Positions 5,328-22,735 of a DNA stretch of 64,000 nt are shown here, piece by piece. The position numbers and the translations under genes were made by a program. How positions within the stretch are numbered: the stretch's first letter is position 1; each line of letters starts with the position of its first letter. Location of the stretch: the NCBI RefSeq assembly GCF_003319115.1, contig NZ_QOHF01000001.1, positions 186,001-250,000 on the forward strand, given 5' to 3'. The stretch comes from Geodermatophilus sp. TF02-6. Lineage in GTDB: Bacteria > Actinomycetota > Actinomycetes > Mycobacteriales > Geodermatophilaceae. Below the pieces are notes generated by a model, which had not been told where the DNA came from, made no database searches, and saw only the letters and a program-made list of their open reading frames with translations.

Positions 5328-5401
5328 CGCGACTCCTCTCGCGCCGGTCGTCCGGTCATGGGTGCCCGCTCCTCACCCTCGGCGGGATCGGTCCGAGCGG
5401 A

Positions 5402-6616
5402 TCAGTCCTGCGCGGATGCCTCGTAGAGGATCTCCTCGGCCGTGCCGTTCCACTGCACGACCACCCCGGGGACGACGATGGTGTTGTCCTCCCAGGACAG
5501 GCCCTCGCCGAGGGCGCCGTCGAAGGTCTTCGTCCCCTCCTCGACCATGGCGTCCTTGATCGCCGCGCGGTCGGCCGAGCCGGCCGCGGCGATGGAGCGG
5601 GCGAGGAAGTAGGCCGCGTCGTAGGCCTCGGCGGCGTAGTTGAGCGGGTCCTCGTCGTACTTGGCCCGGTAGGCCTGCACGAAGTCCTGACTGGACGTGG
5701 CCGTCTGCTGGTAGTTGAAGTCGACCGGCCACACCATGCCCGCGCCGTCGGCACCGGCGGGCTTGAGGTTGCCCGCGCCGGCACCGGAGTTGCCGAGCAC
5801 CGGGCCGGTGTAGCCGGCCTGGCGCAGCTGCTGCATCGCGGTGACGTTGGACGCTCCGGTCTGCAGGATCGCCATGATGTCGGGGTTGGTGTCGAGCACC
5901 TGCGAGATGGGGGCGGAGAAGTCCTGGGTCGTCGCGGGGGTGTCGATGCTGGCCGTGACCTGGATGCCGAGGTCCTTCGCCATCTGCGGGATGGTCGTGC
6001 TGCCGACCTCGTCGAGGGTGGGCAGGGCGCTGGTGTAGACCACGCCGATGGACCTGGCGCCCTGCTCCTCGACGAACCTCGAGACGATCGGGTAGTAGGA
6101 GCTCATCAGCGGGGTGGCCCGCCAGGTGTAGTCGCCGGCGATGACGCCCTCGCTGCCGGCCTGGGTGTAGACCACCGGCAGCCCCTGCTTCTGCAGCAGC
6201 GGCGACATGGCCACCGCCTCGGCGCTGGAGACCGACCCGAAGATCGCGGAGACGTCCTGGTCGGCGATGGCCGTGGTGGCCTGCTGGGCCGCGGTCTGCG
6301 CTTCGCTCTTGGTGTCGACGAGGTCGAGCTGGAGCGTGCTGCCGCCCAGCAGGTCGGAGGAGTTGATCTCCTCGACGGCCAGCTGGTAGCCCTTGTTGGC
6401 CGCGTTCCCGGCGAAGGCGACCACGCCCGTCGTCGGGTTCACCGACACCAGCCGGATCGTGTCCGGCAGGCCGCCGCCTCCGGAGTCGCCGCCTCCGGAG
6501 TCGCCGCCTCCGCCGCCGTCCCCTCCGCCACAGGCCGCCGCGCTCATCAGCAGGGCCGCTGCGATCCCGGCCCGGACGGCGCGGCCGCGCGGACGGCGGA
6601 GCGGGTTGCGAGCCAC
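5402..6616 (-). CDS. ABC transporter substrate-binding lipoprotein (LivK-like)
   Basis: First gene of the importer operon; 404 residues from a GTG preceded by GGAGG. The N-terminus is a lipoprotein signal: basic 'VARNPLRRPRGR', a hydrophobic stretch and a lipobox ending AAAC, so it should be anchored to the outer membrane face. A Gly/Ser/Asp linker encoded by 15-bp repeats follows. The body is a type I periplasmic-binding fold ('VAFAGNAANKGYQLAVEEIN', 'AIFGSVSSAEAVAMSPLLQK', 'AAEAYDAAYFLARSIAAAGS'). It captures the substrate for LivHMGF. A copy of the shared 17-bp operator sits 29 bases upstream of its start. Confidence 0.9.
   Translation of the reverse strand: MARNPLRRPRGRAVRAGIAAALLMSAAACGGGDGGGGGDSGGGDSGGGGLPDTIRLVSVNPTTGVVAFAGNAANKGYQLAVEEINSSDLLGGSTLQLDLVDTKSEAQTAAQQATTAIADQDVSAIFGSVSSAEAVAMSPLLQKQGLPVVYTQAGSEGVIAGDYTWRATPLMSSYYPIVSRFVEEQGARSIGVVYTSALPTLDEVGSTTIPQMAKDLGIQVTASIDTPATTQDFSAPISQVLDTNPDIMAILQTGASNVTAMQQLRQAGYTGPVLGNSGAGAGNLKPAGADGAGMVWPVDFNYQQTATSSQDFVQAYRAKYDEDPLNYAAEAYDAAYFLARSIAAAGSADRAAIKDAMVEEGTKTFDGALGEGLSWEDNTIVVPGVVVQWNGTAEEILYEASAQD
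6473..6502 (-). repeat. 15-bp tandem repeat in lipoprotein linker
   Basis: Two perfect units of GCCGCCTCCGGAGTC (plus-strand orientation) plus a partial third. They encode a repeated Gly-Gly-Asp-Ser-Gly linker just after the lipidated cysteine. As 15 bp is in frame, copy-number change would only lengthen or shorten the tether. Confidence 0.8.
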
Positions 6617-6644: not shown

Positions 6645-6661
6645 ATGCGCATCATTCGCAT
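6645..6661 (-). promoter_or_regulatory. shared 17-bp operator, copy 1
   Basis: Best copy of a motif found five times in this island. Read as ATGCGCAT-C-ATTCGCAT it is a near-perfect palindrome around one central base (7 of 8 positions pair). It lies between the predicted promoter and the importer's first gene, at or just after the predicted transcription start, a position suited to repression. Confidence 0.7.
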
Positions 6662-6672
6662 GTGTGGTGGGC

Positions 6673-6702
6673 ACCATAGCCAGCCGGGAAGGGCCTTGTA
6701 AA
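6673..6702 (-). promoter_or_regulatory. predicted promoter of the importer operon
   Basis: On the minus strand a -35-like TTTACA and a -10-like TATGGT are separated by 18 bases and point at the solute-binding protein gene. The match to sigma-70-type consensus is moderate. The neighbouring operator starts about a dozen bases downstream of the -10 element. Confidence 0.4.
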
Positions 6703-6711
6703 GCGCGACGA

Positions 6712-7611
6712 TCAGGGCCGCGGCGGGCCGGCGCCCGGGCCCTCCCCGGAGCAGACCCCCACCGGGACGCCCGGCACCTCCGCGGGGAACGCGAGGACGC
6801 TGCCGGCGAGCGGTTCGGCGGCCGCGCGCCCGGGGTCGAGGTGCGCGCTCGAGGTGGTGACGAAGAGGACGTCGAGGCCGTCGCCGCCGAACGCCGGGCT
6901 GGTCGGGTGGGTGACCGGCACCGGCACCACCTGGGTCAGCGACCCGTCGGGGTCGTAGCGGTGCACCGCCCCGCCGCCGAAGAGGGCGACCCAGACGCCG
7001 CCCGCCCGGTCGGTGGCCAGCCCGTCGGGCAGGCCGGTCCCCTCGGCGAACTCGACGAACGGCTCGCGGGCACCCAGGGCGCCGGCGTCCAGGTCGTAGG
7101 CGTAGCGCCAGACCACCCGGCGGGGCGTGTCGACGAGGTAGGCGACCGACCAGGCGGCGTCCCACGCCAGCCCGTTGGCGGCGGACAGACCGGACTCCGC
7201 GACGCGGACGGAGCCGTCGAGGTCCACGACCGAGAGCGTGGCCCGCGCTCCGCCGTCCCGGTCCCAGGTCCCGATCCACAGCCGCCCCCGGCCGTCGCAC
7301 CCGCCGTCGTTCGTCGTCGTCGCGGCCGTGTCGGGGTCGACGCGGCAGACCACCGCGCGCGTCCCGTCGGGTCGCCACCGCGTCACGGTGCTGCCGCCGG
7401 CGACCACGAGCCCGCCCCCGTCGTCCGGCACGACCAGGCTGACCGGGCCGCCGACGTCCGTGCGGACCTCGTGCCCGGTGTCGGGCGACCAGCGGACCAC
7501 CTGTTCGGCGCGGACGTCGACGCGCAGCAGCTCACGCCGCCGCGGGTCCCAGCACGGGCTCTCGCCGAGACCGTCGCGGGACCGCACCGCGACGTCCACC
7601 CGCGGGGGCAC
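6712..7611 (-). CDS. SMP-30/gluconolactonase-like protein
   Basis: A 299-residue six-bladed beta-propeller of the SMP-30/gluconolactonase/LRE family. 'GLGESPCWDPRRRELLRVD' carries the metal-binding Glu of the first blade. 'NDGGCDGRGRLWIGT' and 'SAANGLAWD' supply the Asn and Asp-type ligands, and 'PDGLATDRAGGVWVAL' is the usual later blade. Family members are calcium- or zinc-dependent lactonases. Here, near a Baeyer-Villiger monooxygenase, hydrolysis of a ring-expanded lactone is an attractive role, as an alternative to the alpha/beta hydrolase. It is the last gene of the acyl-CoA dehydrogenase operon. Confidence 0.82.
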   Translation of the reverse strand: MPPRVDVAVRSRDGLGESPCWDPRRRELLRVDVRAEQVVRWSPDTGHEVRTDVGGPVSLVVPDDGGGLVVAGGSTVTRWRPDGTRAVVCRVDPDTAATTTNDGGCDGRGRLWIGTWDRDGGARATLSVVDLDGSVRVAESGLSAANGLAWDAAWSVAYLVDTPRRVVWRYAYDLDAGALGAREPFVEFAEGTGLPDGLATDRAGGVWVALFGGGAVHRYDPDGSLTQVVPVPVTHPTSPAFGGDGLDVLFVTTSSAHLDPGRAAAEPLAGSVLAFPAEVPGVPVGVCSGEGPGAGPPRP

Positions 7612-7624
7612 CGGGTGGCCGCCG

Positions 7625-8140
7625 TCAGCCGGCGGCGCCGGCCTCGGACTCCGCCGACTGCACGAGCGCGTCGATGTTCGACGGCCCCGCGGCGTCCCGG
7701 CGCAGCATGAGGCCCGCCCGGTGGGCGATGTGCACGACCTCGCCGCGCTGGTTGATGCCCCGGTGCTCGAAGTAGACGATGCCGCTGTCGGTGCGGCTCT
7801 TCGACTCCCGCTTGTCCAGGATCGTCGACTCCGCGCGCAGCGTGTCCCCGTGGAACACCGGCTTCGGGAAGTCGAACTTGGTGTAGCCGAGGTTGCCCAG
7901 CGTCGTCCCGAGGGTCAGGTCGTGCACGATCATCCCGCCGATGAGGCCCGCGGTGTACAGGCTGGGGACGAGCCGCTGGCCGTGCAGCGTGGTGCGCATG
8001 TAGTGCTCGTCGAGGTGGATGGGCGCGGGGTTCATGGTGAGCGACGTGTAGAGGATCGTGTCCGTCTCGGTCACCGTCCGCGACCACTCGTGCCGGTACT
8101 CCCGGCCGACCTCGAACTCCTCGAAGAACAGGCCTGCCAT
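7625..8140 (-). CDS. MaoC-family (R)-enoyl-CoA hydratase-like protein
   Basis: A 171-residue single hot-dog domain. 'YTSLTMNPAPIHLDEHYMR' corresponds to the hydratase-2 motif with catalytic Asn-Pro...His. 'LVPSLYTAGLIGGMIVHDLT' and 'FGDTLR'-like 'FHGDTLRAESTILDKRES' complete the fold. Proteins of this subtype hydrate enoyl-CoA esters or, in pairs with CitE-like lyases, mesaconyl- or malyl-type CoA intermediates. It sits between citE-like and SMP-30-like genes, 13 bases from the latter. ATG start with a plausible ribosome site. Confidence 0.85.
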   Translation of the reverse strand: MAGLFFEEFEVGREYRHEWSRTVTETDTILYTSLTMNPAPIHLDEHYMRTTLHGQRLVPSLYTAGLIGGMIVHDLTLGTTLGNLGYTKFDFPKPVFHGDTLRAESTILDKRESKSRTDSGIVYFEHRGINQRGEVVHIAHRAGLMLRRDAAGPSNIDALVQSAESEAGAAG

Positions 8141-8152
8141 CTGCGCGTCCTC

Positions 8153-8231
8153 CCTCGATCGGGGTTCACTTGGCGCCGTTGCGCCCGGCCAGCCTCGGTC
8201 GGGTTCAGCTGCCGCCGTTCAGCTCGGCCAG
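8153..8231. repeat. about 40-bp direct duplication over the 3' end of the lyase gene
   Basis: Two imperfect copies of an about 40-base unit lie back to back (8153-8192 and 8193-8231), each beginning CCTCG and ending CGGCCAG. The second copy contains the stop codon and last codons of the HpcH/CitE-like gene; the first is a diverged non-coding copy. This looks like an old tandem duplication of the gene's 3' end. Confidence 0.6.
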
Positions 8232-9098
8232 CTGGTCCACCCGCGCCAGCCACTCCACCGCCTTGTCCGCGTGCGCCTTGTCGACGTGGACGTCGCCGTA
8301 CACGACCGCGCCGTCCCCGCGCGCCTCCGCCTCCCGGTAGGTCGACAGCAGCCCGCGGTAGAAGTCGATGGTGGCGGCGTCCGGCGTGAAGACCTCGTTG
8401 ACCACCGGGACGTGCGTGGGGTGCAGCACGACCTGCCCGCGGAACCCCGTCTTCCGGCCGCGGACGGTGAACTCCCGCAGGCCGTCGAGGTCGTGGATGC
8501 GCTCCCAGAGGGCGGTCAGGGGGTGCCGGCCGGCGGCGCGGGTGGCCAGCAGGATCCGCGTGCGGTGGTACAGCGACTCGGTGCCCTCGGGGCTCCACTC
8601 GTAGCCGACCGCCTTGGCGATGTCGGCGTGCTCGGCCGTCGGCCCGATCACCGCGCCGACGCGGGGGCTCGCCGCGGCGATCTCCTCGCAGTGCTGGATC
8701 CCCTGGACGGTCTCCACGGGGATGATGTACTCCACGCCCGAGGTGCCGGACCGCGCCTCGACGTGGTCGAGCAGGGTGTCCCAGCGGACCACGTCGAGGG
8801 CGGTGTCGACCTTGGGGGCGAACACCCCCGTCAACCCCGGCACCACGGTCGCCTCCAGGTCGGCCCCGGCCAGCCCGGTGCCCAGCGAGTTGGGCCGGAC
8901 GAACAGCCCCGTCCGGGGGCGCTCCTGGCTCAGGCGCGCGACCGCGTCGGCGACCTCGCCCCGTGCTGCGGCCTTGAGGTGGTCGGGCACCGAGTCCTCG
9001 AGGTCGAAGCAGATCGCGTCGGCGCCGCAGGCGGCGGCCTTGTCGAACCACGACGTCTTGTGCGCCGGCACGAACAGGACCGTGCGGTACGGCTTCAC
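8205..9098 (-). CDS. HpcH/HpaI aldolase - citrate lyase beta-like (CitE family)
   Basis: 297-residue TIM-barrel lyase. 'RTVLFVPAHKTSWFDKAAAC' is the CitE opening. 'CFDLEDSVPD' has the magnesium-binding Glu/Asp, 'GLFVRPNSLGTG' the CoA-site Arg, and 'YIIPVETVQGIQ' the second metal Glu. Relatives cleave or make malyl-CoA, citramalyl-CoA and similar C-C bonds, or act as thioesterases. Next to MaoC this suggests an adjacent hydrate-then-cleave step on a branched acyl-CoA. A GTG start gives the standard N-terminus. Confidence 0.85.
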   Translation of the reverse strand: MKPYRTVLFVPAHKTSWFDKAAACGADAICFDLEDSVPDHLKAAARGEVADAVARLSQERPRTGLFVRPNSLGTGLAGADLEATVVPGLTGVFAPKVDTALDVVRWDTLLDHVEARSGTSGVEYIIPVETVQGIQHCEEIAAASPRVGAVIGPTAEHADIAKAVGYEWSPEGTESLYHRTRILLATRAAGRHPLTALWERIHDLDGLREFTVRGRKTGFRGQVVLHPTHVPVVNEVFTPDAATIDFYRGLLSTYREAEARGDGAVVYGDVHVDKAHADKAVEWLARVDQLAELNGGS

Positions 9099-9124
9099 CG
9101 TCGTCCTCCCGGGCTCGGGCGGTG

Positions 9125-9195
9125 CTCGATCAGCAGGGGCTCGATCAGCAGGGGCTCGATCAGCAGGGGCTCGATCAGCAGGGGCTCGGTCAGTA
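9125..9195. repeat. 15-bp tandem repeat, four perfect copies plus a degenerate fifth
   Basis: Four exact units CTCGATCAGCAGGGG fill most of the gap between the acyl-CoA dehydrogenase and lyase genes. A fifth, degenerate unit runs into the stop codon of the dehydrogenase. The units contain no gene. The layout suggests serial slippage duplication starting from the gene's 3' end. Confidence 0.9.
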
Positions 9196-10356
9196 GCTGC
9201 GCGGCAGGCCCAGGACGTGCTCGCTGAGGTAGTTCAGGACCATCTCCTGGCTGATCGGCGCGATCCGCTTGAGCCGGGCCTCCCGGAAGTACCGCTCGAC
9301 GTGGTACTCCTTGCCGAACCCGAAGCCGCCGTGCGTCTGCAGTGCGGCGTCCGCGGCGAAGAAGGCCGCGTCGGCCGCCAGGTACTTGCCCATGTTGGCC
9401 TCGCGCCCGCAGGGCAGCCCGTTGTCCAGCAGCCAGGCGGCCTTGGTCACCATCAGGTCGGCCGCGTCCAGGCGCATCAGCGCCTCGGCGAGCGGGAAGG
9501 CGACGCCCTGGTTCTGGCCGATCGGCCGGTCGAAGACGATCCGCTCCTTGGCGTAGGTGGTCGCGCGGCGCACGGCGGCGCGGCCGATGCCCAGCGCGGC
9601 GTTGGCGGAGATGATCCGCTCGGCGTTGAGGCCGGCGAGGATGGCCCGGAACCCCTTGTCGACCTCGCCCACGACGTCCTCGTCGGCGACGAACAGGTCG
9701 TCGATGAACAGCTCGTTGGTGTTCACCGCGTTTCGGCCGAGCTTGGGGATCTCGCGGATCTGCACGTGCTCGGGGTCCATCTCGGCGAACAGCAGCGTCA
9801 TGCCGTCGGTCTTCTTCGCGACGTCGGCGAGCTTGGTGGTGCGGCAGAGCAGCAGCATCCGCTCGGCCTGCTGCGCCTTGGTGATCCACACCTTCTTGCC
9901 CGAGATGCGGTACCCGCCGGGCACCTTGCGGGCGAAGGTGGTGATGCGGGAGGTGTCGGTGCCGGCGTCGGGCTCGGTGACCGCGAAGGAGATGTGCAGG
10001 TCGCCCGAGGGCACGCGGGGCAGGAAGCGCTGCTTGAGCTCCTCCGAGCCGTGCCGGATGATCGGGTCGAAGCCGAAGATGCCGATGTGCACGGCGCTGC
10101 AGGCGTTCATCCCGCCGCCGGTCGCCGAGATCTCCTGCTCGACGATGGCCGCCTCGGTGACGCCCAGGCCGCCGCCGCCGTACTCCTCGGGGATGGTGAT
10201 GCCCAGCCAGCCGGCCTTGGCGACGGCGTTGTAGAACTCCCACGGGAACTCGTGGGAGATGTCGTGCTCCATCCAGTACTGGTCGTCGAACGGCGCGCAC
10301 ATCTCCCGGACGGCCCGGCGGATGTCCTCGTGCAGCGGGTTCGAGCTGAAGTCCAC
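9190..10356 (-). CDS. acyl-CoA dehydrogenase
   Basis: 388 residues. The flavin-binding block 'SFAVTEPDAGTDTSRITTFA' and 'GYRISGKKVWITKAQQAERM' match FadE-type proteins. 'RALGIGRAAVRRATTYAKER'-like and 'DRPIGQNQGVAFPLAEALMR' match the C-terminal helical domain, with 'QTHGGFGFGKEYHVERYFREARL' at the active-site end. It introduces the alpha-beta double bond into an acyl-CoA and passes electrons to ETF. GTG start with GGAGGA six bases upstream. It leads an operon with CitE-like, MaoC and SMP-30-like genes, and has an operator copy over its promoter. Confidence 0.92.
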   Translation of the reverse strand: MDFSSNPLHEDIRRAVREMCAPFDDQYWMEHDISHEFPWEFYNAVAKAGWLGITIPEEYGGGGLGVTEAAIVEQEISATGGGMNACSAVHIGIFGFDPIIRHGSEELKQRFLPRVPSGDLHISFAVTEPDAGTDTSRITTFARKVPGGYRISGKKVWITKAQQAERMLLLCRTTKLADVAKKTDGMTLLFAEMDPEHVQIREIPKLGRNAVNTNELFIDDLFVADEDVVGEVDKGFRAILAGLNAERIISANAALGIGRAAVRRATTYAKERIVFDRPIGQNQGVAFPLAEALMRLDAADLMVTKAAWLLDNGLPCGREANMGKYLAADAAFFAADAALQTHGGFGFGKEYHVERYFREARLKRIAPISQEMVLNYLSEHVLGLPRSY

Positions 10357-10484
10357 CCTGTCCTCCTCCGTGGGTCGCCGGTCCCGGCGCGCACCGACGG
10401 GCCGGCGTGGTCCCGCCGGGGTGCCGCCGGATCCCCCACGCCCGGGTCCGCGCCGCCGACGGGCTGGCGACGACGCGCCGACAC

Positions 10485-10515
10485 ATGCTAATCATGCGCA
10501 GCGTTCTGACGTCAA
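10485..10515 (-). promoter_or_regulatory. shared operator, copy 2, overlapping a predicted promoter
   Basis: The 17-bp site (10485-10501) reads ATGCTAAT-C-ATGCGCAG. On the minus strand a TTGACG box lies upstream and TAGCAT, inside the operator, can serve as -10 with a 19-base spacer. An operator over the -10 region is a classic repressor layout. It serves the acyl-CoA dehydrogenase operon; the MFS gene ends 30 bases to the right. Confidence 0.65.
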
Positions 10516-10531
10516 GGTCGGGCTCCGGCGT

Positions 10532-11998
10532 TCAGGGCAGGGGGTGGGCGGCGCCGGTCGGGGCGTCGTCCGTGTCCGGTGCGGCGGCCGACCGGGTCGG
10601 CGGCCGGCGCCGCGGGACGACGCTGGCCGCCGCCGCGCCGAGGACGACGACCAGCCCCGTGACGGCGGCGGCGTCGTACCCGGCGGCGGCCGGGAAGCCG
10701 TCCGCGGACCCGCCGTAGGCGCTGAGGAGCGCGGCGCTCAGCGCGCTGCCGGTCGCGTACCCGATGGTGCGCGCGACCTGGTTGAAGCCGACGGCGCTGC
10801 CCACCTCCGACGGCGGGACGGCCCGCACGATGAGGCCGGGCATCGCGGCGAACGTGCACCCCGCGCCGAGCCCGGCCAGGGCCATCGTGGCGAACACCAG
10901 GGCCACGTCGTGCCGCGCGGTGAGGAACAGCCCCATCGCGGCCCCGAACAGGACGCACCCGACGGGGAGGAGGAGCGCCGCGTCGCGGCCGCGCAGCAGC
11001 CGCGGCGCCAGCTGCGCCGTGGCCAGGCTGACCACGGCGAAGGGGACCATCGCCGACGCGGTGACGAACACCGAGGCCGCCAGGCCGTCGGGCTCGTCCC
11101 GCGGGGTGCGCAGCAGCCGGGTCGCGGCCGACAGCAGCAGGTAGACGCCGACGCCGGCCGCGAGACCGGTGAGGTCGGCGAGCAGCACCTCCCGGTGCCG
11201 CAGCAGGCGCAGCTGCACGAGCGGCTGCGGCCGGTGCAGCTCGTGGCGGGTCCACAGGACGGCGCTGCACCCGGCGACCCCGAGCAGGCCGAGGACGGCC
11301 GGCGACCCCCATCCCCACGCGGCCGCCTCGCTCACCGCCGTCAGCACCGAGGTCAGCGCGACCGCGAGGAGGACGGCTCCCGGGAGGTCGAACGGCACGG
11401 GCGACAGGTGCCCGCCCGGCGGCAGGACCAGCACGGCGAGCAGCAGCGCGGCGCCGGCCACCGCCGCGCCGAAGGCGAAGCTCGCCTCGACGCCGCCGAG
11501 CTCGGCGAGCGCCCCGCTCACCGGGTACCCGAGGCCGGCACCGGCCACCGTGGTCACCGACAGCAGGGGGACCGCGGGAGCCGCGCGCAGCGGCTGCAGG
11601 TGGTCGCGGGCGATGGCGATGCCGAGCGGCATCATCCCGACGCCGACGCCCTGCATCGCCCGCCCGGCCAGGAGACCGGCGAAGCCCAGCGGCACGGCGG
11701 CGAGCAGACAGCCGGTCGTGACGACCGCGAGCGCCGCCAGGACCACGCGGCGTCGGTGCGGCCCGTCGCCGAGCCGGCCCAGGACGGGCGCGGCCACGGC
11801 ACCGACCAGCATCGCGACGGTCACCGACCACTGGGCCGACCGGACCGACACCCCCCGGTCCGCGGCGATCTCCGGGACCAGCGGCGCGCCGAGGCTGCTG
11901 ATGAGGCCGACCACGACGACGACGAGCACCAGGCACCCGACGAGCGCCGGCTCGCTGCCCGAACGGCGGGACCCGACGGCCGGCGACACGGCGCTCAT
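10532..11998 (-). CDS. MFS transporter (DHA2/EmrB-like)
   Basis: 488 residues with about 14 hydrophobic segments. Motif A-like 'PVLGRLGDGPHRRRVVLAA' lies in the first cytoplasmic loop and 'LLAGRAMQGVGVGMMPLGIA' is motif C-like. The second half has 'FAAMPGLIVRAVPPSEVGSA'. This is the drug/proton antiporter-type family with 14 helices, usually an exporter of hydrophobic or acidic compounds. The ATG overlaps the stop of the amidohydrolase gene by four bases. In this operon it may export toxic intermediates or import an acid; direction is not determinable. Confidence 0.85.
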   Translation of the reverse strand: MSAVSPAVGSRRSGSEPALVGCLVLVVVVVGLISSLGAPLVPEIAADRGVSVRSAQWSVTVAMLVGAVAAPVLGRLGDGPHRRRVVLAALAVVTTGCLLAAVPLGFAGLLAGRAMQGVGVGMMPLGIAIARDHLQPLRAAPAVPLLSVTTVAGAGLGYPVSGALAELGGVEASFAFGAAVAGAALLLAVLVLPPGGHLSPVPFDLPGAVLLAVALTSVLTAVSEAAAWGWGSPAVLGLLGVAGCSAVLWTRHELHRPQPLVQLRLLRHREVLLADLTGLAAGVGVYLLLSAATRLLRTPRDEPDGLAASVFVTASAMVPFAVVSLATAQLAPRLLRGRDAALLLPVGCVLFGAAMGLFLTARHDVALVFATMALAGLGAGCTFAAMPGLIVRAVPPSEVGSAVGFNQVARTIGYATGSALSAALLSAYGGSADGFPAAAGYDAAAVTGLVVVLGAAAASVVPRRRPPTRSAAAPDTDDAPTGAAHPLP

Positions 11999-12870
11999 GC
12001 CGCGGACGCGTCTCCGAGCCGGTACACCCGCCGCGCGGTGCGGCTCAGGACGGCGGCCGCCTCCTCGGCGCCGAAGGGGGCGAGCAGCTCGCGGACGCCG
12101 GTCACCGTCCTGGCGTGGTCCCCGGCCCGCAGGCTGACCGGCCAGTCGCTGCCGAAGAGGACGCGCCCGGACCCGAACGCCTCGAGCACCGCCTCGGCGA
12201 AGGGACGCAGGTCCTCGACCGTCCACCGCTCGAGGTCGGCCGTGGTGGTGAGGCCGGAGAGCTTGCAGCAGGCGTTCGGCGCCCGCGCCAGACGCCGGAT
12301 GCCGGCGTGCCAGGACCGCGACTCCTCGGCGTGCCAGCCGGCCGCCACGGGTGGCTTGCCCGCGTGGTCGAGGACGAAGGTCGTCTGCGGCAGCGCGCGC
12401 ACCGCCGCCGTGGTCGGCTCGAGCTGCGCCGGTCGCATCATCAGGTCGCACACCAGGCCCTGCGCCCCGAGCCGGGCCATCCCGCGGTGCACCTCGGGGC
12501 GGCCGATCCACGCGCCCGGGTCCGGCTCGGCCTGGGCCTGGTGGCGCACCCCGCGCAGGAGCTCTCCGCCGGCGAGGCCGCGCAGGCGGTCGAGCCGGTC
12601 CTCGACGTCGACGGCGGCCAGGTCGACCCAGCCGACCACGCCGGAGACGAGGGGGCAGCCGGCGGCCCGGCGCAGGAGGTCCTCGGTCTCGTCCTCGCGG
12701 TTGAGCACCTGGACGAGCACGACCTCGTCCACGCCCGCGCCCGCCGCGGCCGCGGTCAGGTCCTGCTCGGTGAAGTCCCGGTGGATCACCGCCATGGCGA
12801 CCGGGTCGATCCACGGCTGCGGCCGGTCGGCGAGCCGCCACAGGTGCACGTGCGCGTCGGTGACGTGCAC
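11995..12870 (-). CDS. amidohydrolase family 2 (PDC hydrolase/fuconolactonase-like)
   Basis: 291-residue TIM-barrel metal hydrolase of the Amidohydro_2 group. The metal motif DAHVHLW is right at the N-terminus, 'FVLDHAGKP' supplies the strand-6 His, and 'VLFGSDWPV' the catalytic Asp. Relatives hydrolyse lactones such as 2-pyrone-4,6-dicarboxylate and fuconolactone. Near a Baeyer-Villiger monooxygenase it is a third lactonase candidate in this island. The GTG start was chosen because it lies directly before the HxH motif and five bases after the NTF2-like gene. Confidence 0.82.
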   Translation of the reverse strand: MHVTDAHVHLWRLADRPQPWIDPVAMAVIHRDFTEQDLTAAAAGAGVDEVVLVQVLNREDETEDLLRRAAGCPLVSGVVGWVDLAAVDVEDRLDRLRGLAGGELLRGVRHQAQAEPDPGAWIGRPEVHRGMARLGAQGLVCDLMMRPAQLEPTTAAVRALPQTTFVLDHAGKPPVAAGWHAEESRSWHAGIRRLARAPNACCKLSGLTTTADLERWTVEDLRPFAEAVLEAFGSGRVLFGSDWPVSLRAGDHARTVTGVRELLAPFGAEEAAAVLSRTARRVYRLGDASAA

Positions 12871-12875
12871 GGCCC

Positions 12876-13442
12876 CTACTCGTAGAACTGTCGCAGGAAC
12901 GCGTTGCCCTCGTCGGAGTAGAGGACCTCCGGCCAGTCGGCCGGCCGCCGGTCGCCGTAGGCCCGGACGCTGAGGCGGTCCCCCAGGCCCTCGGGCAGCT
13001 CCGCGAGGGGCATGTAGTACATGTAGGACATCAGCCGGTCGGCGAAGCGCCACGCGCCGTCGGCCTTGCGGTAGGTGTCCTTGTAGCGCAGCGCCACCTG
13101 CATGGCGGCCCCGTCGCGGGTGACCTCCGCGTGCGAGGCGAGCAGGCCCGTGGCGCGGGTCGGGTCGGCGTCGTCAAAGCGGATCACGTGCCCGTGGGTG
13201 AAGTGGTTGGTCGGGCCCAGGGCGGCGAACCGGCCGAGGTAGGTCGTGACGATCTCCTCGATGCCCCGGGCGGCGAACACGCCGTCCTGGGACCGCAGCG
13301 TCGCGTCCTCGCAGAAGATCGCGCGGATCCCCTCCTCGTCGCGCTCGTCCATGACGAAGCCGTACAGCACGGCCAGCTCCGCGATGGCGGTGCGGTCCTC
13401 CAGTCGGGCCAGGCGCGCCTCCAGGTCCGGTTCGTCCGCCAC
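12876..13442 (-). CDS. SnoaL/NTF2-like protein (ring-hydroxylating beta-subunit-like fold)
   Basis: 188 residues. 'LEARLARLEDRTAIAELAVL' then 'YGFVMDERDEEGIRAIFCED' is the standard SnoaL-like_4 opening. 'TNHFTHGHVIRF' and 'YKDTYRKADGAWRFADRLMS' form the sheet and cavity. The GTG start has GAGGAGG six bases upstream, which fixes it over longer frames. First gene of a three-gene operon (NTF2-like, amidohydrolase, MFS), divergent from the flavin reductase. An operator copy lies 68 bases upstream. Function unknown: isomerase, dehydratase or hydrolase are possible for this cavity fold. Confidence 0.8.
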   Translation of the reverse strand: MADEPDLEARLARLEDRTAIAELAVLYGFVMDERDEEGIRAIFCEDATLRSQDGVFAARGIEEIVTTYLGRFAALGPTNHFTHGHVIRFDDADPTRATGLLASHAEVTRDGAAMQVALRYKDTYRKADGAWRFADRLMSYMYYMPLAELPEGLGDRLSVRAYGDRRPADWPEVLYSDEGNAFLRQFYE

Positions 13443-13510
13443 GACACCCTCCTCGTCGACCGCAGGGACCCCATGCCTAGCGCCCGACCCGCCCTGCCGC
13501 AAGGAGTTCC

Positions 13511-13527
13511 GTAGTAATCATGCGCAG
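13511..13527. promoter_or_regulatory. shared operator, copy 3, in a divergent promoter region
   Basis: GTAGTAAT-C-ATGCGCAG lies in the 123-base gap between the NTF2-like operon and the flavin reductase gene, 38 bases before the latter's ATG. The ATGCGCAG half is identical to copies 2, 4 and 5; the other half is degenerate. One site could control both directions. Confidence 0.6.
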
Positions 13528-13565
13528 AAAAAGATAGAAAGGGGCCCCCGCCCGAGGAGGTCCCG

Positions 13566-15575
13566 ATGACAGCCCCCAGCACGGCGACGCCGCCGTCCGG
13601 CCCGGCCACCCCGCCGTACCCGCGCCTGTTCAGCCCGATCGACGTGGGCACGATGCGGCTGCGCAACCGGGTGGTCCTGCCGCCGCACGCCTCGGCGATC
13701 GGGAACGTCTACGGCACCGAGGAGGAGGCGGCGCGCAACATCGCCTACTTCGTCGACCGGTGCCGGGACGGCGGCGCCGGCTGGGTGAGCAGCCTCTCGA
13801 CGCACGTGGCCAACACGCTCATCCCCGGCTTCGAGCCGACCGGGGTGGGCGCGGCCACCACCGGCTTCTTCCGCCTCCCGTTCTTCGTCGAGCGGGTGCA
13901 GCAGTTCTGCGACTCCCTGCACGCGCTGGGGACGTCGGTGTCGGTGCAGATGGTGCACCAGGGCGGCATGCCGCACGGCGCCTCGGCGGTGATGAGCGCC
14001 CCGACCATCAACCTGGTGCCGCACGTGATGACCCGGGCCGACATCGAGGCCTTCGTCCGGGAGTACGCCGAGTCGGCGCGGCTGTCCCAGGCCGGCCGGG
14101 CCGACGGGGTGGAGCTGCACCTCAACCACGACGACCTGCACGAGTGGTTCCTGTCCCCGCTGACCAACCACCGCGAGGACGCCTACGGCGGGTCGCTGGA
14201 GAACCGCTGCCGCTTCTCCGTCGAGACGCTGCGGGCCATCCGCGAGGTCGTCGGCGACACCATGACCGTGGGGGTCCGGCTCAACGTCCGCGAGGAGGTC
14301 CCCGGCGGGTACGGGGTGGACGAGGGCGTCGAGATCGCCCAGTACCTGGAGTCGACCGGGCTGATCGACTACGTGCACGGCGTCGTCGGCAGCCCGTGGG
14401 GCAACCCCAGCTACATCCAGCCGACCTACGTCGCGCCCGCGCAGTTCGCCCCGCTGGTCGGGGAACTCCGCAAGGGCGTCGGCCTGCCGGTCGTCTACAC
14501 CGGCCGGGTCACCGACCCGGACGTCGCCGAGCACGTGCTCGCCGCCGGGCACGCCGACCTCGTCGGCATGGCCCGCGCGCACATCGCCGACGGCGACCTG
14601 CTGCGCAAGGCCCGCGCGGGCCGCACCGCCGAGATCCGCCCCTGCGTCGGGGGCAACGAGTGCATCAGCCGCCGCTACGTCGAGGGCCTCCCCTTCGGCT
14701 GCGCGGTCAACCCGACCACCAGCCACGAGGTGGAGGGCCCCTGGCCGCGGGCGGCGTCCCGACGCAGGCTGGTCGTGGTGGGCGGCGGGCCGGCCGGCAT
14801 GGAGCTGGCGGCCCTGGCGGCCGAGGGGGGCCTTTCCGTCACGCTGCTCGAGGCGGAGGACGAGCTGGGCGGGCAGCTGCGCTACGTCGTCCGGGCGCCG
14901 CGCCACGAGGGCTACACGCAGTACCTCGACTGGCAGCGGCGCCGGCTCACCGCGCTCGCCGTCGACGTCCGGACCGGGTGCAGGGCCACGGCGGGTGACG
15001 TCCGGGCACTGGGCCCGGACGTCGTCGCGGTCGCCACGGGGGCCGGCCCCCGCACCCCGGCCATCGACGGGGTGACCGCCGGGCACGTGCACGACGTCCG
15101 GGACGTGCTGGCCGGGCGGGCCGCGCCCGGCCGCCGCGTCGCCGTGGTCGCCCAGGACGACCACGTCGCCCCGCTGTCGGTCGCCGACTCCCTCGCCGAG
15201 CGCGGCTGCGAGGTCACCGTGGTCTACGCCACCGCCCAGCCGGCGCCGCTGCTGGGCCGCTACATCGTCGGCGCGATCCTCGGCCGGCTCGACGCCCGGG
15301 ACGTGCGCTTCCGGTTCATGGAGGAGGTCGTCGGCATCGGCCGCACGACGATCACGACCCGCAACGTCTACTCCGGCGTGGTCCGCACCGTCGGGGAGTT
15401 CGACTCCGTGGTCCTGGCCTGCGGCAGCGTCTCGGACTCCGGGCTCTACGACGAGCTGGCTCCCGAGCTGCCCGAGGTGCACGTGCTCGGCGACGCCTAC
15501 GCCCCGCGCCGGCTGGTCTTCGCCACCCGCCAGGCGCACGCCCTGGCCCAGGAGCTGGTCACGGCCGCGGCCTGA
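13566..15575 (+). CDS. OYE-like FMN/FAD oxidoreductase (2,4-dienoyl-CoA reductase/TMADH family)
   Basis: 669 residues in two parts. Residues 1-350 form an old-yellow-enzyme barrel ('MRLRNRVVLPPHASAIGN', 'LHLNHDDLHEWFLSPLTNHR', 'YGGSLENRCRF'). Residues 395-669 form an FAD/NAD(P) module ('VVVGGGPAGMELAALAAEGG', 'VVLACGSVSDSGLYDEL'). Between them the family normally has a 4Fe-4S site Cx2Cx2Cx11-12C. Here it reads C360, G363, C366, C379, so the second ligand is glycine. The expected reaction is reduction of an activated C=C bond such as an enone. The ATG is preceded by GAGGAGG. It opens a single-gene unit ended by a strong hairpin. Confidence 0.85.
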   Translation: MTAPSTATPPSGPATPPYPRLFSPIDVGTMRLRNRVVLPPHASAIGNVYGTEEEAARNIAYFVDRCRDGGAGWVSSLSTHVANTLIPGFEPTGVGAATTGFFRLPFFVERVQQFCDSLHALGTSVSVQMVHQGGMPHGASAVMSAPTINLVPHVMTRADIEAFVREYAESARLSQAGRADGVELHLNHDDLHEWFLSPLTNHREDAYGGSLENRCRFSVETLRAIREVVGDTMTVGVRLNVREEVPGGYGVDEGVEIAQYLESTGLIDYVHGVVGSPWGNPSYIQPTYVAPAQFAPLVGELRKGVGLPVVYTGRVTDPDVAEHVLAAGHADLVGMARAHIADGDLLRKARAGRTAEIRPCVGGNECISRRYVEGLPFGCAVNPTTSHEVEGPWPRAASRRRLVVVGGGPAGMELAALAAEGGLSVTLLEAEDELGGQLRYVVRAPRHEGYTQYLDWQRRRLTALAVDVRTGCRATAGDVRALGPDVVAVATGAGPRTPAIDGVTAGHVHDVRDVLAGRAAPGRRVAVVAQDDHVAPLSVADSLAERGCEVTVVYATAQPAPLLGRYIVGAILGRLDARDVRFRFMEEVVGIGRTTITTRNVYSGVVRTVGEFDSVVLACGSVSDSGLYDELAPELPEVHVLGDAYAPRRLVFATRQAHALAQELVTAAA

Positions 15576-15579
15576 CACA

Positions 15580-15618
15580 CCGCGGCTCCGGTCCCGCGTC
15601 GCGGGGCCGGAGCCGCGG
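15580..15618. terminator. bidirectional hairpin terminator
   Basis: An 18-bp stem with one G-T pair and a three-base loop, starting CCGCGGCTCCGG and ending with its complement, lies between the convergent flavin reductase and aldehyde dehydrogenase genes. There is no T-run, as usual in high-GC actinobacteria. Confidence 0.75.
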
Positions 15619-15627
15619 GCCGGTGGG

Positions 15628-17142
15628 CTACGGGGCGGGCGGTGTCTCGGCGTCCGGCTCGCTCGTGGGACGGGCGCCGATGCCCTGGATCAGCTTGGTC
15701 TCGAGGAAGCCGCCGATCCCCTCGGGGCCGCCCTCGCGGCCCAACCCGGACTGCTTGTAGCCGCCGAAGGGCTGGGTGACGCACATGCCCCAGTCGTTGA
15801 CGTAGATCTGTCCGGTGCGCACCCGGCGGGCGACCGACTCGCCGAGCTCCGGGTCCGCGGTGAACACGGCGCCGGACAGCCCGTACGGCGAGTCGTTGGC
15901 GATCCGGACGGCGTCCTCGACGGTGTCGTAGGGGATCACCGAGATGACCGGCCCGAAGATCTCCTCCTGGGCGATCCGCATCGAGTTGTCGACGTCGGCG
16001 AACAGGGTGGGCTGGACGTAGTAGCCGCGCTCCAGTCCCTCCGGCCGGCCGCCGCCGGTGACCAGGCGCGCGCCCTCCTCGATGCCGGTGCGGATGTAGC
16101 CCTCCACCCGGTCGCGCTGGCGCTCGGCGGCCAGCGGCCCGAGCACGGTGTCCTCCTCGCGCGGGTCGCCGACCTTGACCGACTCCATGATCGCCTTGAC
16201 GTTCTCCACGACCTCGTCCTGCTTGTCCCGGGGGACGACGAGGCGGGTCAGCGCGGCGCACACCTGGCCGGAGCTGCCGATGCCGGAGAAGGTGACCGTC
16301 TGGGCGACCGAGGCGACGTCGGCGTCGGGCAGCACGATCGCCGCCGACTTGCCGCCGAGCTCGAGGGTGATGCGGGCGATCCGCTCCGCGCACAGCGCCA
16401 TGATCCGGCGGCCGGCCGCGGTCGACCCGGTGAAGGACACCTTGTCGACGTCCGGGTGCTTGACCAGGTACTCCCCGACCTCGCGCCCGCCCGGGAGGAT
16501 GCTGACCACGCCCTCGGGCAGGCCCGCGGCCTCCAGCGCCTCGGCGAGGACCATCACCGACACCGGGCCCTCGGGCGCCGGCTTGAGGACGACGGTGCAG
16601 CCCGCCGCCAGCGCCGGGGCGATCTTCAGCGACGCGGTGGCCACCGGCCCGTTCCACGGGATGATCACCGCGGCCACACCGACCGGCTCGCGGACGATCC
16701 GGGCCGTGCCGCCGTCGGGCAGGGTGCGCTCCTCCTCCAGCTGCAGGGTCGAGGCGAGGGTCGCCGCGTCGTCCCACATGGCCGAGGCGTTGGCGTGGAA
16801 GGCCTTGCTGATCATCCCCGGCGCGCCGATCTCCGCGGTGAAGGAGGCCTCCATCTCGGGGATCCGCCGGGCCACCTCCTCCCCCACCCGGCGCAGCACC
16901 GCGGCCCGCTCGGCGGGGGTCATCCGTGGCCAGGGCCCCTCGTCGAAGGCCTTGCGTGCGGCGGCGACCGCGGCGTCCATGTCGGCCGGGCTGGCGGCCG
17001 GCACCGTGGCCACGACCTCCTCGGTGATCGGCGAGACCACCTCGATCTTCTCGTCGGTGGCCGGTGGCACCCAGCGTCCACCGATGAAGAGCCTGTCGAA
17101 CGAGCGCACGCCGGCCTCGGCGCGCTCCTGTACCGCGGTCAT
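15628..17142 (-). CDS. aldehyde dehydrogenase
   Basis: 504-residue NAD(P)-dependent aldehyde dehydrogenase. The nucleotide fold is 'VSFTGSTAAGRRI', the catalytic Glu lies in 'ITLELGGKSAAIV' and the catalytic Cys in 'GIGSSGQVCAALTRL'. The C-terminal 'CVTQPFGGYKQSGLGREGG' is diagnostic. It probably oxidises the omega-hydroxy-acid-derived aldehyde made by the alcohol dehydrogenase that leads the same operon. ATG start; a 24-bp palindrome lies between it and the NTF2-like gene. Confidence 0.93.
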   Translation of the reverse strand: MTAVQERAEAGVRSFDRLFIGGRWVPPATDEKIEVVSPITEEVVATVPAASPADMDAAVAAARKAFDEGPWPRMTPAERAAVLRRVGEEVARRIPEMEASFTAEIGAPGMISKAFHANASAMWDDAATLASTLQLEEERTLPDGGTARIVREPVGVAAVIIPWNGPVATASLKIAPALAAGCTVVLKPAPEGPVSVMVLAEALEAAGLPEGVVSILPGGREVGEYLVKHPDVDKVSFTGSTAAGRRIMALCAERIARITLELGGKSAAIVLPDADVASVAQTVTFSGIGSSGQVCAALTRLVVPRDKQDEVVENVKAIMESVKVGDPREEDTVLGPLAAERQRDRVEGYIRTGIEEGARLVTGGGRPEGLERGYYVQPTLFADVDNSMRIAQEEIFGPVISVIPYDTVEDAVRIANDSPYGLSGAVFTADPELGESVARRVRTGQIYVNDWGMCVTQPFGGYKQSGLGREGGPEGIGGFLETKLIQGIGARPTSEPDAETPPAP

Positions 17143-17160
17143 GCGGGTCCTCTCGGTCGA

Positions 17161-17184
17161 GGGCCGAAGTGGCCACTTCGGCCC
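17161..17184. other. perfect 24-bp palindrome
   Basis: A perfect inverted repeat centred on GTGGCCAC (arm GGGCCGAAGTGG) lies in the 66-base gap between the NTF2-like gene and the aldehyde dehydrogenase start. It may be an internal operator, an RNA hairpin that changes the ratio of the two products, or a dispersed intergenic repeat. It is not related to the 17-bp operator. Confidence 0.6.
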
Positions 17185-17208
17185 CGCTGGGGCTGGGGTC
17201 GGGCGGGG

Positions 17209-17655
17209 TCAGGCGTCGAAGCCCTCGAGCTCGGGTGGGGTGAGGGCGGAGATGCGCCGTTCGGCGATCCGCCAGCCGTCGGCGGTGCGCCGGTAGACGT
17301 CCTCGTTGAGCGCGATCGCCTTGAAGGCGGACCCGGACTTGGTGTGGCCCTCGGAGAACACGTAGTTGGTGCCGCGGGCGGTGTCGCCGTCGTCGGCGAA
17401 GTCCACGACGTGGTTGGTGATGACGTGGAACTGGTCGGCGATCGCCGCGGCGTCGCGCTCGAAGAAGCCGAGGATCGCCGCGCGGCCGCTGAACCGCTCC
17501 AGGCCCACCGCGGTGGCGTCCCAGACGGCGTCGTCGGTGAAGGCCGACGCGGCCTCCTGCGGGTCGAAGCGGTCCAGCCCACGGGCGTAGACGTGCGTGG
17601 CCCGCTGGATGTCGAGCAGGTCGGCGGTGCGGGTCTCGGCCGGGGTGAGCGTCAT
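17209..17655 (-). CDS. SnoaL/NTF2-like protein
   Basis: 148 residues of the SnoaL-like fold. 'TADLLDIQRATHVYARGLDR' and 'FDPQEAASAFTDDAVWDATA' form the first helices. 'FHVITNHVVDFADDGDTARG' and 'VYRRTADGWRIAERRISAL' form the sheet. The ATG follows the stop of the alcohol dehydrogenase by 11 bases. It is the third NTF2-like protein in the island and lies between alcohol and aldehyde dehydrogenase genes. Substrate unknown. Confidence 0.8.
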   Translation of the reverse strand: MTLTPAETRTADLLDIQRATHVYARGLDRFDPQEAASAFTDDAVWDATAVGLERFSGRAAILGFFERDAAAIADQFHVITNHVVDFADDGDTARGTNYVFSEGHTKSGSAFKAIALNEDVYRRTADGWRIAERRISALTPPELEGFDA

Positions 17656-17666
17656 GTCCGCCGTCC

Positions 17667-18788
17667 TCAGTCGTCGTAGACGATGACGCCGCGGATGTTC
17701 TTGCCCTCGCGCAGGTCGGCGAAGGCCTGGTTGATGTCCTCCAACCGGTAGGTCCTGGTGATCAGCTCGTCGAGCTTGAGCCGGCCGCTCTTGTACAGGT
17801 CGGCGATCAGCGGGATGTCGTTGCGCGAGTTCGTGGTGCCGTAGAGGGAGCCCTGCAGGCGCTTGCCCGACATCGCGAAGCTGAACAGGTCGAACTGCAC
17901 GTCGCGCTGCATCACCGGCGCGGCGGCGGTGAGCACGATGACCCCGCCGCGGCGGGTGAGCTGGTTGGCCTGCTCGACGATCTCGCCGCGGGCCACGTCG
18001 ACGGTGATGATCACCCGGTCGGCGCCCTGCCCGTCGGTCATCTGCTCGACCAGCGGCCCGGCCTCCTCGAACGAGGCGACCGAGTGGGTCGCGCCGAACT
18101 CCTCGGCCTTCTCCCGCTTGAAGGCCACCGGGTCGACGGTGACGATGTTCTTCGCCCCGCGCAGCCTGGCGCCCTGCACGGCGTTCATGCCGACCCCGCC
18201 GGTGCCGAAGACGACCACGGTGTCGTTGAGCTGGATCTCGGCCGCGTAGACCGCCGACCCCCAGCCGGTGGGGACGCCGCAGCCGATGAGCGACGCCGGC
18301 ATCAGCGGGATCTCCTCGTCGATCTTCACGACCGCGTCGACCGGCACGGTGACGTAGGGGGCGAACGTGCCCAGGTAGCTCATCGCGCCGACGCCCTTGC
18401 CCCGGGCGTGGATGCGGTGCGTGCCGTCCGGCGCGTACCCGGCCAGCACCCCGGCGCCGAGCACGCACATGTTCGCGCGGCCGGAGACGCACATCTGGCA
18501 CTTGCCGCAGGAGGGCAGGAAGGAGAGGACGACGTGGTCGCCCTCCTGCACGTCGTGCACCTCCGGGCCCACCTCGGTCACCACGCCGGCGCCCTCGTGG
18601 CCGCCGAGGACCGGCGCCCACGGCAACGGGATGTCGCCGGTGTCGAGGTGGTCGTCGCTGTGGCAGATGCCCGACGAGGTGAGCTTGACCATGACCTCCC
18701 CGCGCTTGGGCGGGTCGAGCTCGATCTCCTCGACGCTCCAGCCGGAGTGGGTCCCGGGCTCCCAGAGCAGTGCACCGACGGTCTTCAC
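17667..18788 (-). CDS. NDMA-dependent alcohol dehydrogenase (nicotinoprotein type)
   Basis: 373-residue zinc MDR enzyme. 'SSGICHSDDHLDTG' and 'LGGHEGAGVV' hold the catalytic zinc ligands. 'CGKCQMCVSGRANMC' has four Cys for structural zinc, and 'VVVFGTGGVGMNAVQGARL' binds NAD. The long insert and 'GSLYGTTNSRNDIPLIADLY' match the NDMA-dependent, mycofactocin-associated alcohol dehydrogenase family, in which NAD stays bound and electrons leave through mycofactocin. Likely substrate here is a primary or cyclic alcohol of the pathway. GTG start; operator copy 4 lies about 170 bases upstream. Confidence 0.87.
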   Translation of the reverse strand: MKTVGALLWEPGTHSGWSVEEIELDPPKRGEVMVKLTSSGICHSDDHLDTGDIPLPWAPVLGGHEGAGVVTEVGPEVHDVQEGDHVVLSFLPSCGKCQMCVSGRANMCVLGAGVLAGYAPDGTHRIHARGKGVGAMSYLGTFAPYVTVPVDAVVKIDEEIPLMPASLIGCGVPTGWGSAVYAAEIQLNDTVVVFGTGGVGMNAVQGARLRGAKNIVTVDPVAFKREKAEEFGATHSVASFEEAGPLVEQMTDGQGADRVIITVDVARGEIVEQANQLTRRGGVIVLTAAAPVMQRDVQFDLFSFAMSGKRLQGSLYGTTNSRNDIPLIADLYKSGRLKLDELITRTYRLEDINQAFADLREGKNIRGVIVYDD

Positions 18789-18959
18789 GAGCGGCTCCTC
18801 ATCTCGGCATCTCGGCTGGAGGGTCTCGGCCGGCCGGGCGCGCGGGCACGCGCCCGGGAGCGGTCCGGCGGGCGGCCCGGAGGACGGCGCGGCCGGCCGG
18901 ACGCGAGTGACCGGACGTGCGTGACCCTAACCACATCCCCACGCGCGCAGCCAGGGTCC

Positions 18960-18976
18960 CTGCGCATCTTTCGTAG
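18960..18976 (-). promoter_or_regulatory. shared operator, copy 4
   Basis: CTGCGCAT-C-TTTCGTAG; the CTGCGCAT half is identical to copies 2, 3 and 5 and the other half keeps the AA/TT core. Placed to control the leftward alcohol dehydrogenase operon. Confidence 0.6.
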
Positions 18977-19031
18977 GTTTTCGACGGACCGGCCGCCGGG
19001 CGGTCGTCGTGGCCGGCGAACCCTTGCATCC

Positions 19032-19048
19032 CTGCGCATGGTTGCATA
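19032..19048 (+). promoter_or_regulatory. shared operator, copy 5
   Basis: CTGCGCAT-G-GTTGCATA; the conserved half is intact and the second half is offset by one base. It lies within the spacer of a possible TTGCAT / TACGTT promoter for the hydrolase-monooxygenase operon. Confidence 0.6.
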
Positions 19049-19116
19049 CGTTGTTGCGCACCTCACAGCCGGACGGCCGTGACGCCGCCCGGCACCCCGG
19101 CGGAAGGCGGACCCCC

Positions 19117-20058
19117 ATGGCGTTGGACGACGCGACGACGGCGCTGCTCACCCAGCTGGCCGAGAGCGGCACCAAGCCCCTGCACGAGATGACCCCCGAG
19201 GAGGCGCGCGGACTGACCGCGGCGCTGGGTGAGATGTACGGCCCCGGGCCGGACGTGCACCGGGCGGAGATGACCAGCGCGCCGGCGGACGACGGGTACG
19301 CCATCCCCCTGCACGTCCTCGTGCCGACCCCCTCCCCGCGCGGGGTGCTCGTCTACTACCACGGCGGCGGGTGGGTGATCGGGGCGCTGCCGGAGTTCGA
19401 GACCCTCGGCCGCACGCTCGCCCAGCGGACCGGCTGCGCCGTCGTCCTCGTCGACTACCGGATGGCGCCGGAGAACCCCTACCCGGCCGCCGCCGACGAC
19501 TCGTGGGCCGCCCTGCAGTGGGTCGACGCCCACCTGGAGGAGATCGCCGGGTCGCGCGTCCCGCTGATCGTCGCCGGCGACAGCGCCGGCGGGAACCTGG
19601 CCGCGATCACGGCCCAGAAGGCCCGGGACGCCGGCGGCCCGGCGATCGCGATGCAGGTGCTCGTCTACCCCGTCACCGACTGCGACCTGGACAACGAGAC
19701 CTACCGCGACCCGGAGAACCAGCTGATGCTGACGCGGGAGTCGATGGTCTGGTTCTGGGACCTCTACGCCCCCGAGCACGCGGTGCGGCAGAACCCGGAT
19801 GCCTGCCCGTCGAAGGCCGCCGACCTCTCGGGCCTGCCGCCGGCCGTCGTCCTCACCGCCGAGCACGACGTGCTGCGCCAGGAGGGCGAGGACTACGCCG
19901 AGGCGCTGCGCGCCGCCGGCGTGCCGGTGCAGTCGCGCCGCTTCGACGGCCAGATGCACGGCTTCTTCACGATGGTCAACGTGCTGCCCGGCAGCGAGGC
20001 CGGGATCGGCTACGTCGCCGAGGCCGTCGACCGCCAGCTCACCGCCCAGCCCGCCTGA
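19117..20058 (+). CDS. alpha/beta hydrolase (hormone-sensitive lipase family)
   Basis: 313 residues. The HGGG oxyanion motif begins at His82 and the nucleophile motif GDSAGG has Ser156. 'LTAEHDVLRQEGEDYAEAL' gives the acid Asp and 'QMHGFFTM' the catalytic His. The cap-like N-terminus 'LLTQLAESGTKPLHEMTPEE' is typical of this group, which includes bacterial lactone hydrolases and carboxylesterases. Being directly upstream of the Baeyer-Villiger monooxygenase, its likely job is opening the lactone product. The ATG was chosen over an upstream frame because the extra residues resemble untranslated promoter sequence containing operator 5. Confidence 0.88.
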   Translation: MALDDATTALLTQLAESGTKPLHEMTPEEARGLTAALGEMYGPGPDVHRAEMTSAPADDGYAIPLHVLVPTPSPRGVLVYYHGGGWVIGALPEFETLGRTLAQRTGCAVVLVDYRMAPENPYPAAADDSWAALQWVDAHLEEIAGSRVPLIVAGDSAGGNLAAITAQKARDAGGPAIAMQVLVYPVTDCDLDNETYRDPENQLMLTRESMVWFWDLYAPEHAVRQNPDACPSKAADLSGLPPAVVLTAEHDVLRQEGEDYAEALRAAGVPVQSRRFDGQMHGFFTMVNVLPGSEAGIGYVAEAVDRQLTAQPA

Positions 20059-20120
20059 TCCCCACCCACTCCCCGGTCGCCGGCGGCGGCCGGGGCAACC
20101 CCCGAGAGGAACGCGAGCAC

Positions 20121-22725: not shown

Positions 22726-22735
22726 GGCGGTCCTC

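Follow-up and report, generated by a model that had tools for sequence, protein, structure and literature searches.

Regulators of the FadR/FCD branch of the GntR family, such as NanR, LldR and PdhR, combine a winged helix with an FCD effector domain, and their genes are linked to the operons concerned. According to PMC4494728, the usual operator of FadR-type members has a GT...AC core, and NanR and BioR are named there as exceptions. A further described system is Atu1419, an FCD/VanR-type repressor of hydroxycinnamate catabolism; according to PMC7797058, its operator is the 10-bp ATGTATACAT and its palindromes run ATG...CAT and overlap promoter elements. Here we describe a catabolic island of Geodermatophilus sp. 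TF02-6, analysed in a window of 64,000 nucleotides (contig NZ_QOHF01000001.1, positions 186,001 to 250,000; coordinates are those of the window unless a contig or locus handle precedes them), in which five copies of a 17-bp element lie ahead of operons and a gene for an FCD-type GntR regulator is found at 28701-29459 on the minus strand. This protein shares with the FadR/FCD regulators the two domains and the linkage of its gene to the operons, whereas the operator core is AAT-C-ATGyGCA without GT...AC. Like Atu1419, it would be the FCD repressor of a catabolic cluster, but the element is 17 bp long and one of its halves is better kept. The comparisons below support the 17-bp element as the operator of a pathway-specific regulon, and we consider it likely, from sequence comparison, that the cluster's GntR protein binds it and that this explains the whole best. 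Judged by search listings, we found no description of the combination of GntR, mycofactocin and Baeyer-Villiger monooxygenase (BVMO), nor of four of the operator strings.

Each 17-mer is given on the strand that reads ...ATGCGCAk at its end. Copy 1 (6645-6661, minus strand, ATGCGAATGATGCGCAT) is placed 28 bp 5' of the importer binding-protein gene, whose start is likely the GTG at 6616, and copy 2 (10485-10501, plus strand, ATGCTAATCATGCGCAG) is 128 bp upstream of the acyl-CoA dehydrogenase gene, which starts at 10356 on the minus strand. Copy 3 (13511-13527, plus strand, GTAGTAATCATGCGCAG) occupies the gap between the OYE/FadH-type reductase gene (start 13566) and the SnoaL-amidohydrolase genes (start ~13442), while copies 4 (18960-18976, minus strand, CTACGAAAGATGCGCAG) and 5 (19032-19048, minus strand, TATGCAACCATGCGCAG) share the divergent gap between the alcohol dehydrogenase and esterase genes, copy 5 being 68 bp ahead of the esterase-BVMO operon. 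The positions reported in a preliminary description of the window were thus all recovered, and all five copies were in gaps, as it had said; copy 5 is inside a mechanical open reading frame (ORF) at 19009-20058, yet precedes the probable start codon, an ATG at 19117. The consensus proposed there, nTnnnAAn-S-ATGCGCAk, fits four of the five copies, with copy 5 carrying A instead of T at position 2; this copy is the weakest of the five, one half being better kept than the other. The near-perfect palindrome ascribed to the best copy is true of copy 1, and copies 2-5 are less symmetric. The pattern TNNNAANNATGCGCAK matched the window four times vs none across 100 shuffles, and AANNATGCGCA matched five times vs a shuffle mean of 0.05.

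When the whole genome of 4,725,362 bases was scanned with AANNATGCGCA, exactly the five window sites were returned, while the backward-pattern control gave two matches; the exact matches are therefore restricted to the island and not scattered, which was the point that the preliminary description had wished to see settled by such a scan. Allowing one mismatch in TNNNAANNATGYGCAK gave 26 genome matches vs 8 for the backward control. Eight of these were in the island and 18 elsewhere, the latter comprising 13 within called ORFs and five where our rough gene caller gave none. The one-mismatch search and the matrix scans also identified a sixth strong site, ATGCGAAACATGTGCAT, at C13:165723-165739 (L008:19723-19739), about 20 kb to the left of the window, so that the regulon is wider than had been described. 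Taken at its longest reading frame, an AMP-binding (CoA-ligase-like) gene would include the site, which is nevertheless 5' of the likely ATG of that gene; the opposite side carries a P450-SDR-P450 set of genes (SDR, short-chain dehydrogenase/reductase) in the other orientation.

Stretches around the clusters of eight near relatives, defined as genomes with a GntR protein at least 80% identical, were then scanned. The importer site was found in 8/8 (score at least 19.6), and the alcohol dehydrogenase site in all seven covered by the scanned stretches (at least 23 in six, 14.6 in one). At the AMP-binding gene a site was found in 6/6 relatives covered, three scoring 19.5 to 22.7 and three 12.2 to 13.4, two of the latter inside the longest reading frame. 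Loss of the motif at orthologous promoters had been named as what would refute the regulon; the observed retention at the importer and alcohol dehydrogenase is joined by the reductase, where six of the seven orthologues with at least 71% identity kept a site. In alignments of the importer gap and the alcohol dehydrogenase/esterase gap, the operator block is conserved and the flanks drift, and the copy 4 block CTGCGCATCTTTCGCAG is nearly unchanged across seven aligned genomes.

More distant genomes were reached through the reductase, which gave 38 loci in the genome collection; 39 loci (these and L042) were scored for upstream sites, three of them without usable upstream sequence, using a matrix that omitted the window's own reductase site. 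The six retained sites at orthologues with at least 71% identity score above 12 within 250 bp upstream, and only 2/303 control promoters reach the lowest of them; in the seventh, from Kribbella, the site stands instead at the head of the apparent operon. We also compared 20 regions that surround reductase and GntR homologues in nine genomes (388 kb in all) with 20 control regions (400 kb) from four of the nine genomes at places picked by round numbers. At scores of at least 12, 14, 16, 18 and 20, the former held 45, 30, 14, 9 and 4 positions and the controls 9, 3, 0, 0 and 0; the 14 positions at 16 or above represent 12 separate places. Some of the 20 regions had been picked after their motif matches were already seen, and part of the rest overlaps loci scanned earlier; with the five pre-seen regions left out, 288 kb held 26, 17, 7, 5 and 2 positions. 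Counted by gene, sites of at least 12 stood ahead of the binding-protein gene in 4/5 cases, SDRa in 3/6, the reductase in 8/24 and the first acyl-CoA dehydrogenase in 2/8, vs 1/303 in the control. A Nocardioides relative (L047) has its site ahead of the first acyl-CoA dehydrogenase, matching the gene behind copy 2. No site of 12 was found ahead of livH/G/F/M (0/24), SDRd (0/7), MaoC (0/4) or ACAD2 (0/8). Confinement to the island, conservation at operon heads, absence at importer-internal genes and enrichment over control DNA together support the proposal that the sites are operators of one catabolic regulon; recurrence at orthologous promoters and rarity elsewhere were observed, except at some genes and at distant reductase homologues. 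Scattered oxidative genes would thereby be united in a single, defined regulon whose regulator and operator can be tested.

Two simpler searches were abandoned. When one mismatch was allowed, the symmetric pattern ATGNNNATSATNNGCAT was not selective enough, matching each of 15 genomes 20 to 81 times, often in what looked like coding sequence, and counts of AANNATGCGCA in 146 relatives separated clusters poorly from background because relatives often use ATGTGCA. In a separate observation, five genomes (L149, L152, L163, L166 and L167) have very similar sites ending ATGCGCCT, mostly ahead of SDRa, as an operator sub-variant.

The preliminary description had looked for the factor either outside the window or in the GntR protein at 28.7 kb; linkage, co-occurrence and sites near GntR genes favour the second. 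The protein matches the winged helix PF00392 with 43.6 bits (cut-off 27) and, C-terminally, the FCD domain PF07729 with 80.5 bits (cut-off 24.3). Its nearest solved homologue is NanR; the window protein itself scores 106.2 bits with the NCBIfam NanR model NF003011, under the cut-off of 260. No second homologue was found in the genome at E<=1e-12, though there are 10 FCD matches in all. Homologues are present in all 15 genomes searched, and in 10/15, our own included, one is on the reductase's contig within ~80 kb, as judged from coordinates and contig extents, with contig identity covered in 12/15 genomes; for G070 this proximity holds only with a circular contig. In G157 the homologue is on the contig of the importer and a site, other than that of the reductase. 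Across 146 genomes, 21 gave a GntR match at E<=1e-25 and 12 an importer binding protein at E<=1e-60, and the 12 genomes with a GntR protein at least 50% identical are the 12 with the importer. The 50% line was set after both lists had been seen, the next best GntR being 40% identical. Assuming independence, the probability that two sets of 12 among 146 genomes are identical is ~1e-17, a figure that is truly weaker given the relatedness of the genomes and the choice of the line. The distance between GntR and importer is ~10-15 kb in 9/11 relatives, with the two on different contigs in G005, and in the eight near relatives the GntR gene comes after the cluster's thiolase end. A helix GRG(T/S)LRE is common to 14/16 readable homologues and is missing in two weaker ones elsewhere on a G155 contig. 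Upstream scans covered 19 GntR genes (18 of 27 hits at E<1e-30 and one weaker hit), of which four have a site of at least 12 within ~35 bp of the matched start, and in G111 and G128 the GntR gene and the esterase-BVMO operon diverge from a common gap that holds sites of 17.9 and 15.4. Some sites ahead of distant GntR genes (L162, L166, L167, L149, L152) follow a variant near GTGCTAATsTTnnnCAT, possibly reflecting autoregulation.

We propose that a GntR dimer would lie across TgctAAT-c-ATGyGCAk and, without substrate, would sit over or just behind promoters, blocking transcription. Repressed in this way would be the importer and the alcohol dehydrogenase and esterase-BVMO operons, together with the reductase and acyl-CoA dehydrogenase genes; the AMP-binding gene left of the window would be a further target. 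The protein would then be released once its FCD domain binds an acid or acyl-CoA of the pathway. The positions of the sites suggest such blocking, and repression with a carboxylate or CoA inducer is what we would expect from the regulator family. Copy 1 was said to lie just downstream of a promoter, and a promoter-like pair, TTTACA-18-TATGGT, was indeed found there (6673-6702, minus strand, 9/12 matches, shuffle mean 0.0), with 11 bp between its second hexamer and the copy downstream; the -10 box said to overlap copy 2 was not found at the stringency of our promoter search. Activation by GntR from these same sites could be read from their distances to the start codons, which range from 28 to 171 bp, with sites 2 and 4 far upstream. 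We consider activation rather unlikely: many conserved sites are only tens of bp 5' of the start codon, copy 1 stands behind the promoter-like pair, and FCD-type GntR regulators are mostly repressors.

Several observations weigh against a repressor of the GntR family acting at these sites throughout. Among 38 sites (six of our own and 32 hand-picked, with some overlapping or weaker matches omitted), the consensus is an AAT-C-ATG core with a well-kept GCA, leaning to the right half because the scoring matrix favours it; GT-N1-4-AC occurs in 1/38, so if GntR binds, it does so away from the typical FadR-type operator. The operator of NanR, moreover, is a repeat of another kind. Promoter-like pairs at the same stringency were found in one of four gaps and in none of the other three. 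No site of at least 9.5 was found upstream of the importer in G111 and G128, only 4/29 reductase homologues below 71% identity reach 12, and likely operon heads lacked a site of 12 at P450 (0/6, best 11.2), alcohol dehydrogenase (0/2) and luciferase-like genes (0/4). In G070 the 67% GntR orthologue is 2.6 Mb from the importer, and a 44% homologue is ~7 kb away. In the by-gene count 3/16 GntR genes reach 12, and the best scores upstream of the window GntR gene and of its G070 orthologue, 8.3 and 6.5, mark no clear site. We saw no other recurring regulator, with a family search that covered ten selected neighbours; another may have been missed, which slightly lowers our confidence in GntR.

A genuine operator bound by another regulator encoded elsewhere, with GntR controlling other genes or part of the cluster, would accord with the unusual core, the lack of a good site upstream of the window GntR gene and the partial family search of neighbouring genes. 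Single regulators were seen among the neighbours, namely a TetR protein next to GntR in G010 and, at the far left of our own island, a LacI protein. We nevertheless regard this arrangement as unlikely, as GntR is the sole regulator seen recurring in these clusters, occurs with the importer in the same 12/146 genomes, and has sites adjoining its gene in G111, G128 and four other places. The LacI gene (C13:149949) was not favoured as the factor; the searched loci gave a single homologue of its product, 28% identical. The missing GT...AC core is taken as a variant and not as a break with the GntR family, since PMC4494728 names NanR and BioR as exceptions; should GntR bind here, the operator code of the family must be widened. 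That short AT-rich words cluster here by chance, in a genome of 75% GC, is scarcely credible, even with a consensus built post hoc from five sites, since every exact genome match is in one region and the motif recurs in other genera using a matrix from our own genome only. Apart from these candidates, a TetR-like gene was spotted by eye in G155 (L156:5676-6437).

The importer's binding-protein gene adjoins the aldehyde dehydrogenase gene in 7/7 near relatives covered (of eight), and here ~9 kb (about 6.7-15.6 kb) separates the importer from the aldehyde dehydrogenase. This segment contains SMP-30, MaoC, HpcH, acyl-CoA dehydrogenase, MFS, amidohydrolase, SnoaL and reductase genes and carries sites 2 and 3. 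Its reductase was found at E<=1e-100 in 2/146 genomes searched, our own and G070, and is preceded by the same operator in other genera. We lean slightly towards an FCD-GntR subfamily with its own operator class (TgctAAT-c-ATGyGCAk, no GT...AC core), common to catabolic clusters of several actinobacterial genera, in which cassettes would travel with their operator and gained enzymes would come already under the control of the resident regulator. Sites 2 and 3, as the pair within the extra segment, would then exemplify an acquired enzyme module that brings the right switch with it.

Genes were assigned with Pfam and NCBIfam models. The importer operon (394-6616, minus) encodes a branched-chain-type ABC importer (substrate-binding protein, LivH, LivM, LivG, LivF) with SnoaL and SDR proteins. 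It is followed by SMP-30/gluconolactonase, MaoC, HpcH/HpaI lyase and acyl-CoA dehydrogenase genes (6712-10356, minus), an MFS transporter (10532-11935, minus), amidohydrolase_2 and SnoaL_4 genes (11995-13442, minus) and the OYE/FadH-type flavin reductase (13566-15575, plus), whose score with the mycofactocin OYE_2 model is under the cut-off. The next operon (15628-18788, minus) carries an NDMA-dependent (Rxyl_3153) alcohol dehydrogenase, above its model cut-off, with SnoaL and aldehyde dehydrogenase genes, and is divergent to the alpha/beta-hydrolase-3 esterase and BVMO genes (19117-21797, plus). The remainder of the conserved cluster (21889-27900) comprises two mycofactocin-coupled SDRs, both above model cut-off, a luciferase-like monooxygenase and an acyl-CoA dehydrogenase on the minus strand, and a thiolase and an SDR on the plus strand. 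The island probably serves the breakdown of ring-shaped or ketone-type molecules, and its substrate would be of an alicyclic, terpenoid-like or ketone class. Rhodococcus carveol/limonene-type pathways would fit the mycofactocin-coupled SDRs, reductase, BVMO and alpha/beta-hydrolase; in contrast to those, the nearest solved homologues of the BVMO here are phenylacetone and steroid monooxygenases. The operator could be used to find further regulon members and the inducer, and hence the substrate of this recurring mycofactocin-coupled pathway.

The island continues tens of kb leftward of the window. Just left of the window, C13:182296-185739 (L007:16296-19739) encodes two adjacent FAD_binding_2 flavoproteins, perhaps dehydrogenases of the same pathway, and at the far left the LacI-type regulator gene (C13:149949-151091; L008:3949-5091) is next to another ABC transporter. 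In G005 the BVMO was called as two pieces (L247:1-3054), which may reflect a disrupted gene or a gene-caller artefact. Within the window, 33823-38108 carries a regulator with a sugar-binding domain next to phosphotransferase system (PTS) EIIC/EIIB, EIIA and zinc dehydrogenase genes, a separate polyol or sugar PTS locus.

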